A DNA stretch of 37,048 bases, taken from positions 1 to 37,048 of the forward strand of contig JAICNY010000006.1 in assembly GCA_025930955.1 (NCBI GenBank), written 5' to 3'. Positions 11,566 to 15,714 of this stretch are shown one piece after another. The translations under genes and the position numbers were made by a program. Source of the stretch: Thermoleophilia bacterium (GTDB lineage: Bacteria; Actinomycetota; Thermoleophilia; Gaiellales; Gaiellaceae). Under the pieces are notes generated by a model. That model made no database searches. It was not told the DNA's origin and worked only from the letters and a program-made list of their open reading frames with translations. Numbering within the stretch: the stretch's first letter is position 1; every line of letters starts with the position of its first letter.

Positions 11566-13380
11566 CTAGGGGACGTTGAAGGTCGTCTCGCAGTTGGCGG
11601 CCGAGTCGATCCCGGCGCCGCCGTCGGCCACGTCGGTGTTCGCGCCGCAGTCGATCGTGTCGGCGCCGTCGTTGCCGTCGACGAAGTCGTCGTTCGCGTC
11701 GCCGTTCAGCGTGTCGTTGCCCGCGCTTCCGACGAGCACGTCGTTGCCCGTGCCGCCGTTCGCGGTCAGCCCGACGCTCGTCGCGGCGAGACCCCCGGCG
11801 CTGAAGACGTCGTCGCCGCCGAGCAGGTTCACGGTCAGGCTGTCGGTGGCGGCCGCCGCTCCGAGGCCGCTCAGGACGAACCCGCTCCAGCTCAGGACGA
11901 ACGAGCCGGAGCTTCCGCTCACCGTCACCGCGTCCAGACCTGCACTGGTGTTCATCGTCACCGTGTCGGCCGCTCCGTCGCTCGCCCCGCCGGCGCCGAG
12001 ATCGGTGGTCACGTTCGTGACGTCCGTGGCGCCCAGGCTGTTGACCGTGATCGAGTCGGTGCCACCGAGCGCGTTCACGACGAGCGCCTCGACGGCGTCC
12101 GTGTCCATGACGATGTTGCCGACGTTACGCGTGAACAGGAGCCGTCCGCCGTTCGCCGCCGCGGTGAAGATCTCCGCGCCCGCCGAGCCGTTGAAAACGA
12201 GGGTGTCGTCGCCCTCCTGGCCCTCGACGACGTCGCTGCCGTCACCGGGATCCCAGACGAACGAGTCGTCGCCCTCGCCGGCGAAGGCGAGGTCGGCGCC
12301 CTGGTTGCCGTCGATCGTGTCGTCGTCGGATCCGCCCAGGAGGAGGTCGGCGCCGTTGCCGCCGTTCAGGACGTCGTTCCCCGTGCCGCCGTCCAGCGTC
12401 AGCATGACGAGCGAGGCGAGCGCGCTCCCGCTCAGCGTGTCGTTCCCGCCGAGGCCGGCGAGGGTCAGCCGGTCCAAGGCCGGCTCGGCGCCGAGGACGT
12501 CGACCTGCGCGGCGCCCCCGGTCACCTGCACGATCGACATGACGGCGGCGGCGGTGAGGACGTCCGGCATGCTCCCGCCCTCGACGAACACGCGATCGTC
12601 CGCCCCGTCGCCGGCGCCGCCCGTCCCGAGCTCGACCTTCACGTGCGTGACGCCGCTGCCCGTCAGGTCGGAGACGGTCACGTCGTCGGCGCCGACCCCC
12701 GCGTCGAGCTCGAGCCGCTCCACCGTCGCCACGCGGACGCTCGCGTTGTCGACGTTCCGCGTGACCCGCGCCGCGGCGCCCTCGGCCCGCGCGGCGAGCG
12801 CGTCGCCGCCGGACGTCCCCGCCATCCGGAAGAGATCGGTGCCGGGACCGCCGGTCACGACGTCCGCCCCGCCGCCGAGGAGCGAGACGGCGCTGTCGTC
12901 GCCGCCGCCGAGCGAGACGGTGTCCGCGCCCGGCCCGCCGCGCGCCGTGTCGGCGCCGCCCTTCCCGTTCAGGACGTCCTTTCCCGGCCCGCCGTCGAGC
13001 GTCTCGCCGCCGGCTCCGCCGCTCAGGCGGTCGTTCCCGGCCCCGCCGTTCAGCGTCGTCGCCTCGGTCGTCGTGAAGACGCCGCGCCGCTCGTCGATCG
13101 AGACAGTGTCGTGCCCGCCGCCTGCGTTCACGACGATCGCCGTGAAGCGCGAGCGCCGGAATGAGAACTCGACCGACCCGTTCGCACCGACGTCCACCTG
13201 GAGCGTGCCGGCGGCGTTCTTCTTCAGCCTGAGCGCGAGCCTGTCGCCCTTCGCGTTGCCGGTGAGCGTGAGCGTCCCGCCGGCGACCTTCGCCTTGTAG
13301 CCGGCCGCGGCGGGCCCGGCGAGAGCGAGCGCGGCCGCGAGAACGGCGCCGGCGAGAAGGCCCGAGACGGCTCGTCGCAT
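11566..13380 (-). CDS. Exported RTX-like calcium-binding repeat protein
   Basis: This protein (604 residues) has a Sec-type signal peptide (MRRAVSGLLAG followed by an Ala/Leu-rich core ending near GPAAA). The remainder is built of Gly/Asp-rich nonapeptides of the GGxGxDxUx type that form calcium-binding beta-rolls, for example GGAGNDRLSGG, GGPGKDVLNGKGG, GGTGNDVLNGGNG and SAGNDTLNGDANDD. Beta-rich spacers with VTVSDLTG- and ITVNSLG-like motifs sit between blocks. It lacks an enzymatic domain, so a structural or adhesive surface role is likely. Classical RTX proteins leave by type I secretion without a signal peptide; this one uses a signal peptide instead, and no type I exporter is nearby. 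I start it at the ATG at 13380 (an upstream ATG at 13416 adds 12 polar residues). Confidence 0.85.
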   Translation of the reverse strand: MRRAVSGLLAGAVLAAALALAGPAAAGYKAKVAGGTLTLTGNAKGDRLALRLKKNAAGTLQVDVGANGSVEFSFRRSRFTAIVVNAGGGHDTVSIDERRGVFTTTEATTLNGGAGNDRLSGGAGGETLDGGPGKDVLNGKGGADTARGGPGADTVSLGGGDDSAVSLLGGGADVVTGGPGTDLFRMAGTSGGDALAARAEGAAARVTRNVDNASVRVATVERLELDAGVGADDVTVSDLTGSGVTHVKVELGTGGAGDGADDRVFVEGGSMPDVLTAAAVMSIVQVTGGAAQVDVLGAEPALDRLTLAGLGGNDTLSGSALASLVMLTLDGGTGNDVLNGGNGADLLLGGSDDDTIDGNQGADLAFAGEGDDSFVWDPGDGSDVVEGQEGDDTLVFNGSAGAEIFTAAANGGRLLFTRNVGNIVMDTDAVEALVVNALGGTDSITVNSLGATDVTNVTTDLGAGGASDGAADTVTMNTSAGLDAVTVSGSSGSFVLSWSGFVLSGLGAAAATDSLTVNLLGGDDVFSAGGLAATSVGLTANGGTGNDVLVGSAGNDTLNGDANDDFVDGNDGADTIDCGANTDVADGGAGIDSAANCETTFNVP

Positions 13381-13456: not shown

Positions 13457-13490
13457 GCGCCCGCCCGGCCCGTGGGGGCCGGACGGGCGC
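13457..13490. terminator. Strong GC hairpin, candidate terminator
   Basis: A 14-bp stem with a single mismatch (13457-13470 against 13477-13490) closes a 6-nt loop. It lies between the mini-ORF at 13521 and the RTX gene on the minus strand. There is no T-run on either side, so it may act as a GC-rich terminator or an RNA-stabilising hairpin. A separate perfect palindrome, CTTCGGCCGAAG, is at 13508-13519. Confidence 0.45.
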
Positions 13491-13520: not shown

Positions 13521-13589
13521 TCAGCTGCCGCGCTCACCGGAGCGCTTCCCCCACAGGGCGCTGAGCCTTCCGCTGTCGCTCTTCGACAT
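13521..13589 (-). CDS. 22-residue mini-protein sharing the protease leader motif
   Basis: This is a very short minus-strand frame, ATG to TGA, 59 bp downstream of the S8 protease stop. It encodes 22 residues, of which SALWGKRSG (10-18) is identical to residues 13-21 of the protease. In the 27 bases encoding that motif the copies differ at only three positions, all synonymous third bases, which suggests selection on the peptide. The upstream regions also match: both have a GAAGGACGG-type ribosome binding site and a preceding CCCGG-rich leader. It could be a genuine small protein, a precursor or decoy peptide for the protease, or the surviving front end of a duplicated, decayed protease gene. 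Its existence as a translated product is unproven. Confidence 0.5.
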   Translation of the reverse strand: MSKSDSGRLSALWGKRSGERGS

Positions 13590-13648
13590 TCGTCCGTCCT
13601 TCCTCGCCGCCCGTCCGGGCGCGGCTGCATGCCGGAATCGACTTCTCG

Positions 13649-15559
13649 TTACGGGAGGATCTCCAAGGCCGGTTCCTCCGCGGGGGCGTCGTCGAGGAGG
13701 CCGAGCAGGAACGCCTCCTCCTCGGGCGTGAGCACCAGCCCGCCGATGCCGCCCTCGCCGGCCGCGTTGTCCTCGTAGCTCACGCTCGCCCAGGATGCGT
13801 TCGCCCACGACGCCGCCGCCTCGGCCGTGTTTGCCCACGAGGCCGACGCCCAGGACGCCGAGGCCCACGAGGCCGCCGCCCAGGAGGCGTTCGCCCAGGA
13901 CGCGCTCGCCCACGAGGCGCTGGCCCAGGACGCGCTCGCCCACGAGGCGCTCGCCCAGGAGGCGTTGGCCCAGGAGGCGTTCGCCCACGAGGCGTTCGCC
14001 CAGGAGGCCGACGCCCACGACGCGTCCTCCTTCGCAACGTGCGCCCAGCTCGCCGAGTCGAAGACGAGGTCGCCCGAGCCGGCCGGGTCCGAGACGAGGA
14101 ACGCGTTCAGCGCGAGGTTCGGGTTCGGCGGATCCTTGACCGCCGCGGCCTTGTCCGCCGAGACGAAGCCGACACCCACCGACCCGAAGTCGGCCGATGG
14201 CATGTGCGTCGCCGTCAGCATGAGGGCGCCCTTGACCTGGTCGGGCGTCCACGTCGGGTTCCGGGCCAGGATGTACGCCGCCATCCCCGAGACGAGCGGG
14301 GCCGCGAACGAGGTGCCCGAGAGCTCGATGTAGCCGGCCGCGCGGAGCTGCTCGGGCCGCTCGAGCGCGAGCGTCGAGGTCGCCGGCACCGGCCCGATCA
14401 TGTAGCGGCCGGGAGCCCCGACCTCGGGCTTCAGGAAGCCGTCGAGCGTGTAACCGTACGCCGACCACGGAGCCGAGCCGTCGTCCTTCACGTTCAGCTT
14501 CTCGCCGAGGTCGAGGGCGCCGACCGTGATGATGAACGGGTCGTTGCCCGGGGCGAAGGGAACGCCCGAGGGCGCATTCGCGACGCCGTAGTTGCCCGAG
14601 GCCGCGACGACGACCACGCCGGCGAACCAGAGCCGCTCGACCGCCTTCGAGAGCGGGTCGTACATGAAGCTGTTGGGCACCGACGAGTGGAGCGAGAAGT
14701 TCGCGACCCGGATGTCGTACGCGCGCCGGTTCGCATGGATCCAGTCGGCGGCCGCGATGACGTCGCTCGTCATCGCCATGCCCTTGTCGTCCATCACGTC
14801 GAGCGAGACGACCGGAGCGGACGGCGCCGCTCCGGCGTAGCCGGGAGCGCTCCCCGCCGCGATGCCCGCGACGAACGTGCCGTGGCCACGACCGTCGCCG
14901 GGCGAGTTCCCCGCGAGCGAGGTCATCGTCTTCTCGACGATCACGCGCCCGCCGAAGTCGTTCCGGCTCGAGTCGATGCCCGAGTCGACGACGGCGATCG
15001 CCGGCATCGTGCCCGCGGTCCCGTTCGCCATCGACGGCCAGACCTTCGCCAGGCCGGTGGCGAGGGGCCAGAGCTGCTTGTTCGAGTAGTTCGAGAGCTC
15101 GACCGGGGCGTCAGGCGTGATCGCGTAGACGCCGCGCCGGTCGGCGAGCCGCAGGATCTGCTTTCCGCTCAGCGTGACCGCGACCGCGGACACCGTGTCG
15201 AACTCGTCCTTGATCCGCGAGCGCACCCGCGCCTGACCAGTCGCGGTGCCGCCGCCTTCGCGGACGATCATCCCCGCGAGCGCCGCGCTCGGCATGGTGC
15301 CGTCGCTCTGCACGATGACGTCGAAGAGGCGGTCGCCGTTCGCCTCCGCACGCTCGAGAAGCGTCGGAGTGACGTACGCCTCGTGGTCCTTGCCCGACGC
15401 GTCGGCGACGCCGGCGAGGGGGCCCGCCAGCATGACGAGGCCCGCGACGAGCGCCGCCGCGAACCCGCGCCGACCGAGCTTCCGACCCTCACGGGAGCCG
15501 GAGCGCTTGCCCCAGAGGGCGCTCGAGCGCACGTCGTTCCGGTTGGTGTCTCTCCGCAT
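13649..15559 (-). CDS. Secreted S8 (subtilisin-like) protease with ASWAx repeat tail
   Basis: This 636-residue protein begins with an Arg-rich segment containing SSALWGKRSG, then a hydrophobic signal at about 31-52, an inhibitor-I9-like propeptide (about 60-150) and a subtilase domain. The catalytic triad is Asp192 (VVDSG), His226 (GHGT) and Ser417 (GTSFAAP), with oxyanion Asn323 (SGN). After the catalytic domain come about 15 pentapeptides ASWA(S/N/A) (residues 513-591) and an acidic tail ending LEILP. The serine protease should act outside the cell, and the Trp-rich tail may bind the wall, a partner or itself. The ATG follows a GAAGGACGG-type ribosome binding site. A palindrome, CCCCGAACGGGG, about 95 bp upstream may be an operator. 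Confidence 0.9.
   Translation of the reverse strand: MRRDTNRNDVRSSALWGKRSGSREGRKLGRRGFAAALVAGLVMLAGPLAGVADASGKDHEAYVTPTLLERAEANGDRLFDVIVQSDGTMPSAALAGMIVREGGGTATGQARVRSRIKDEFDTVSAVAVTLSGKQILRLADRRGVYAITPDAPVELSNYSNKQLWPLATGLAKVWPSMANGTAGTMPAIAVVDSGIDSSRNDFGGRVIVEKTMTSLAGNSPGDGRGHGTFVAGIAAGSAPGYAGAAPSAPVVSLDVMDDKGMAMTSDVIAAADWIHANRRAYDIRVANFSLHSSVPNSFMYDPLSKAVERLWFAGVVVVAASGNYGVANAPSGVPFAPGNDPFIITVGALDLGEKLNVKDDGSAPWSAYGYTLDGFLKPEVGAPGRYMIGPVPATSTLALERPEQLRAAGYIELSGTSFAAPLVSGMAAYILARNPTWTPDQVKGALMLTATHMPSADFGSVGVGFVSADKAAAVKDPPNPNLALNAFLVSDPAGSGDLVFDSASWAHVAKEDASWASASWANASWANASWANASWASASWASASWASASWASASWANASWAAASWASASWASASWANTAEAAASWANASWASVSYEDNAAGEGGIGGLVLTPEEEAFLLGLLDDAPAEEPALEILP
13787..14023 (-). 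repeat. 15-bp tandem repeat encoding ASWAx pentapeptides
   Basis: Inside the S8 protease, imperfect 15-bp units encode Ala-Ser-Trp-Ala-(Ser/Asn/Ala) about 15 times, interrupted once by TAEAA. A degenerate unit, SASWAHVAKED, precedes the array. Third-base differences between units show it is an established protein repeat and not a fresh expansion. Confidence 0.9.
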
Positions 15560-15652
15560 CTGTCCCGTCCTTCTCTCCGCCGTCCCGGGCGGTTCCGCAG
15601 GTGAAAAGGGAATGCACGCGGAACGCTAGGCCGCGAGACCTTTAGCCACTTC

Positions 15653-15664
15653 CCCCGAACGGGG
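15653..15664 (-). promoter_or_regulatory. Palindrome upstream of the S8 protease
   Basis: CCCC-GAAC-GGGG lies in the gap between the S8 protease (minus) and the DUF72 gene (plus). On the minus strand it is followed by GGAAGTGGCTAAAGG. A similar G/C palindrome precedes the exported glycosidase at 28810-30702. It may be an operator or part of a leader hairpin. Confidence 0.3.
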
Positions 15665-15714
15665 CACGGCCGGCAAGATCACTCGGACGAGGGATCGCCC
15701 GCTAGCATCGGCGC

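Follow-up and report, generated by a model that had tools for sequence, protein, structure and literature searches.

The locus lies on contig JAICNY010000006.1 of a Thermoleophilia bacterium, within a stretch of 37,048 nt that was analysed as a whole (hereafter the window). It comprises a gene for a secreted subtilisin-type protease (Peptidase S8) and, directly behind it on the same strand, a very short open reading frame to which we will refer as the mini-ORF. Its features are the following:

13457..13490, minus strand: G+C hairpin with a 15-bp stem, 3' of the mini-ORF; may end the transcript but lacks a T run
13521..13589, minus strand: mini-ORF MSKSDSGRLSALWGKRSGERGS, 22 codons, TGA included in the coordinates (open reading frame)
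13536..13562, minus strand: copy of SALWGKRSG in the mini-ORF, residues 10-18, identical to the protease tag
13594..13621, minus strand: leader of the mini-ORF, resembling the protease leader (28-nt local alignment)
13649..15559, minus strand: secreted S8 protease (PF00082); SALWG tag at the N-terminus, then a signal peptide, SWASASWA repeats at the C-terminus
15497..15523, minus strand: SALWGKRSG tag of the protease, residues 13-21, kept in relatives
15565..15591, minus strand: leader of the protease with ribosome-binding site GAAGGACGG (leader alignment)
15651..15691, minus strand: two-site upstream element of the protease gene, CTCGTCCGAGTGA-N-CCCCGTTCGGGGGA (pattern searches)

The protease, 636 amino acids long, belongs to Peptidase S8 by virtue of its subtilase domain (PF00082, E value 1.8e-40, 139.5 bits against a cut-off of 21.8) and its Asp, His and Ser triad, the residues of which (D192, H226, S417) are invariant across nine homologues. 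In relatives the usual site of the S8 gene is between GatD-MurT and a gene with GGDEF and HD-GYP domains; in the five relatives read the protease adjoins the GGDEF+HD-GYP gene, and in several of these it is flanked by MurT/GatD at its opposite end. The same site, from MurT/GatD to the GGDEF+HD-GYP gene, is present on another contig (C63) of the genome studied here, where it is devoid of an S8 gene. The window protease therefore sits elsewhere, in a rearranged locus; its neighbours are an RTX-repeat protein and a DUF72 gene, and no conserved synteny was found around it. The former neighbour, directly 3' of the mini-ORF and on the same strand (11566-13380, minus), is a secreted protein with RTX-type calcium-binding repeats (PF00353). 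We infer that relocation of the protease may have been the occasion on which its start was partly copied.

The first-pass annotation had drawn attention to nine residues, SALWGKRSG, shared by the protease (residues 13-21) and a 22-codon reading frame 59 bp downstream, and this identity was confirmed. The protease stop is separated from the ATG of the mini-ORF by 59 nt and from its tag by 86 nt, and the corresponding 27-nt blocks (AGCGCCCTCTGGGGCAAGCGCTCCGGC and AGCGCCCTGTGGGGGAAGCGCTCCGGT) indeed differ at three positions only, all of them third codon positions and all synonymous. The similarity claimed for the upstream DNA likewise holds: the 28-nt leader alignment, which includes the ribosome-binding site GAAGGACGG, has a score that is matched by 0.3% of dinucleotide shuffles and by 0.2% of 2000 window stretches of the same length. 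The mini-ORF has retained its frame, ribosome-binding site and tag, while its flanks carry indels. The two copies are the sole credible SALWGK sites in their own 2.7 Mb genome, in which no further tagged protein was found.

To place the motif in a wider context, it was searched for with a class-wide pattern (399 genomes), with a family-wide profile (103 genomes) and in 80 named S8 loci. It proved to be an N-terminal tag of one secreted S8 protease family in one family of Thermoleophilia. The tag occurs in one to three copies (e.g. SALWGKPAKGETRSSALWGKGGRG) and lies directly ahead of the hydrophobic export segment in all tagged proteases read; the named records of such proteases come from uncultured Actinomycetota and Thermoleophilia, one being labelled Gaiellaceae. 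No convincing case outside this Thermoleophilia family emerged from the class-wide pattern or from a phylum-wide HMM search (396 genomes), the matches there being other proteins or chance. Within genera, all 75 codon differences at the five core positions [S/N]ALWG are synonymous (0 non-synonymous); over a block of 9 codons spanning the motif, 121 are synonymous and 11 non-synonymous. These are pairwise counts, in which a single change can count more than once. This codon pattern indicates that the tag is under selection as a peptide in the proteases, although it is placed before the export signal. On one contig of a related genome (G034, contig C87), about 100 nt past an upstream element, there is the start of a different protein with an export signal and a variant tag, ESRASGLWGAKRGG, the gene being cut by the contig end; to judge from this case, the tag is perhaps not confined to S8 proteases. 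Another genome (G029, contig C67, around position 95677) contains the 5' end of a tagged S8 protease with a broken frame, and such genes thus do decay in the family.

Many tagged protease genes are preceded by two G+C-rich, palindrome-like sites (CTCGNNNGRGKGA, 10-24 nt, CCYN2-6GGGKGA). A spacer of about 13-20 nt separates the sites, and 130-180 nt lie between the second site and the tag. Relaxed patterns of this element match 18-26 of 45 protease upstream regions, with no match of the reversed control in 1.9 Mb, and a related pattern has matches in 55 of the 103 family genomes, again with none for its reversed control. The element precedes S8 proteases as well as other genes of exported appearance, and it marks the genes of exported proteins in this Thermoleophilia family as a candidate regulon. 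In three genomes (G023, G029, G024) it is found 5' of a small membrane protein, conserved and about 37 amino acids long (MDPNTHAFVLATAAITSIAFAISFMNVLAVVLSHLLQ and variants). In three others (G028, G021, G030) it stands 5' of two genes in succession, the first for a secreted protein whose SWAEEASWA-type repeats are reminiscent of the SWASASWA tail of S8 proteases, the second for a short membrane-anchored protein. No element of its own was found for the window mini-ORF; if expressed, it should therefore share the transcript of the protease. This transcript may end at the hairpin at 13457-13490 (fold z-score -3.3), even though the latter is not followed by a T run.

Tag genes that stand alone are known from other genomes of the family. 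The best case is another genus (g9), in which the profile search revealed a tag reading frame in all six genomes, with a GTG start and 17-18 codons (VHECGSALWGTGTRGGR and variants); in G043 the GTG lies one codon further upstream. These six frames show no indel from start to stop, their changes are mainly at third positions or T/S replacements, and their synonymous sites vary while SALWG is fixed. They keep a Shine-Dalgarno sequence, and on their 3' side a strong hairpin is formed by the inverted repeat CAAGCTCCCGGG...CCCGGGAGCTTG. An element of the protease type lies 5' of this gene as well (pattern match in G040, G044 and G045; similar by eye in the rest). With an intact frame and stop, a ribosome-binding site and an upstream element of its own, the g9 frame thus has the attributes of a protein-coding micro-gene. 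The two g9 proteases read (G040 and G041) are without the tag, and in G042, G043 and G044 the tag gene is present while no protease of the tagged family was detected at E<=1e-20, an absence that is not certain because these genomes are 77, 92 and 84% complete. Taken together, these genomes indicate that the tag can persist without the protease.

A second pair of genomes, G107 and G114, has a common stand-alone tag frame between tRNA-Gly and an aldolase gene. The two copies are identical at 33 of 36 nt over 12 motif codons, while in the adjacent aldolase gene 69% of the codons that encode a shared residue are identical. This case is weaker than that of g9, because other genomes have no tag at this place and the start codon is ambiguous; the tag occurs in two of the 29 aldolase loci read, and we rejected it as a general feature of the site. 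The genes that follow stand-alone tags vary by lineage (an RTX protein, pdxS or a small membrane protein, and an aldolase), for which reason the idea that the mini-ORF is a leader of the RTX gene was also rejected as a general rule.

How, then, is the window mini-ORF to be understood? Established are the homology of the two starts, selection at the peptide level on the protease tags, the existence of conserved stand-alone tag genes and an upstream element common to these and the proteases. Building on them, our preferred reading, to which we give close to an even chance, is that part of the protease start region was copied to give the mini-ORF, which is co-transcribed with the protease and yields a functional free tag. 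It would be an old partial duplicate of the region of translation start (leader, ribosome-binding site and tag); as the second cistron of the protease transcript, it would be translated to give a free tag with an action in trans. Given its position ahead of the signal peptide, the tag is most likely recognized on the nascent protease by a dedicated partner, either in the cytoplasm or at the membrane; the free peptide would bind this partner, compete for it or signal to it, and thereby modulate export or report that protease is being made. The simplest reading for g9, where the proteases read are without the tag, is that the peptide works in trans.

Several points speak against a free tag in the window: the g9 tag gene is a parallel and not an orthologue of the window ORF, because it is located at another site; the window ORF is not preceded by an element such as that of the protease; and the expectation that mini-ORF and protease recur as a pair was not borne out, as no orphan motif stands beside the protease in the 80 named loci or in the directly read protease loci of relatives, these relatives being more distant than genus level. 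What remains of the earlier suggestion of a free-standing peptide with the motif is that it holds in principle, in the conserved g9 gene. The suggestion of duplication followed by selection on the peptide is likewise upheld with regard to homology, whereas the selection is seen in the proteases of relatives rather than in the mini-ORF; the three synonymous differences alone are insufficient as proof of selection after the duplication because a full-length paralogue would have had the motif under constraint beforehand.

The alternative that the mini-ORF is a non-functional relic is nearly as likely, and we rate it somewhat short of even. It would be what is left of a tandem S8 paralogue after loss of all but its 5' end, or else the product of a neutral duplication that covered only the start of the protease. 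The motif would then look conserved owing to past selection within a full-length protease. Since no relative has a mini-ORF beside its protease, the window ORF, which directly follows the protease, could be such a partial-duplication relic; the rearranged locus together with the empty usual S8 site, the tandem S8 genes present in several relatives and the broken S8 start in G029 all point the same way. The homologous leader and start codons also fit the decayed 5' end of a second protease that had been named as a possible refutation, but a tblastn search with the S8 set matches the tag alone, without any S8 sequence beyond it. Moreover, the gap from stop to tag is 202-276 nt in the tandem copies read, as opposed to 86 nt here, and some of the tandem gaps contain upstream sites that are missing in the window, so that a relic needs two deletions. 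Retention of the tag peptide despite synonymous change, and its maintenance on its own in g9, likewise argue for a functional product. The spacing of 1961 bp from tag to tag was also considered as evidence of a former tandem and was dropped, because, compared with the tandem cases, the window has a longer protease and a shorter gap.

It is improbable, by contrast, that conservation concerns an element of RNA or DNA, made up of leader hairpin, start region and terminator hairpin, which would function as a small RNA or an attenuator and have the peptide as a by-product. Hairpins are indeed predicted 5' of the Shine-Dalgarno sequence in the window mini-ORF and in several g9 frames, as well as after the ORFs, and the copies in G107 and G114 are almost identical at the nucleotide level. 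Against this, third positions of the protease tag codons vary freely, as the 121 synonymous differences attest, the g9 frames vary synonymously around a fixed SALWG, the genes downstream differ by lineage, and tRNAs are the only Rfam matches at the loci of relatives. The weights expressed for the three readings are judgements and were not computed.

Returning to the free tag, a broader picture can be proposed, tentatively and as something we hold to be possible though below even odds. A lineage-specific secretion tag would have become a gene of its own. The free SALWG micropeptides would be expressed with a regulon of secreted proteases and would serve as signals or act in trans on whatever reads the tag; one genus would have exchanged the protease-borne tag for them, or kept them after the protease was lost. 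If the tag works in trans, a peptide of 17-22 residues provides a defined bait for a partner in Thermoleophilia that are known here only from metagenome assemblies. If true, the case tests whether a part of an export signal can turn into an independent regulatory gene.

No description of the SALWG tag was found among the best-ranked full-text matches in the literature (haemoglobin peptides and unrelated text). Type VII mycosins (TIGR03921, the nearest NCBIfam model) have the subtilase catalytic domain and triad in common with the window protease, but the latter scores 117.7, far below the curated cut-off of 278.75, and is not a member; its tag and C-terminal SW repeats fall outside the matched stretch. 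Autotransporters and two-partner secretion proteins possess an extended signal peptide region (ESPR), a charged, conserved N-terminal extension before a normal export signal, described in proteobacterial outer-membrane secretion, for which functions beyond targeting have been proposed (PMC2805444). Like the ESPR, the tag is a conserved extension that precedes an ordinary export signal in all tagged proteases read. Unlike it, the tag is carried by Thermoleophilia S8 proteases, in which Pfam detects no autotransporter or two-partner secretion domains, and has an invariant LWG core, one to three repeats and stand-alone genes. Peptide pheromones such as cAD1 of Enterococcus and pPplA of Listeria are cut from the signal peptides of lipoproteins, which are cleaved by signal peptidase II (PMC4379056). 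They resemble the tag in that a short peptide from the region of the export signal would have a role of its own, separable from the exported protein; the tag differs in that it precedes the hydrophobic segment, no lipobox is seen and the free copies have their own genes. While we claim membership in neither, the ESPR and the signal-peptide pheromones appear to be, in functional terms, the nearest ideas to the SALWG tag.
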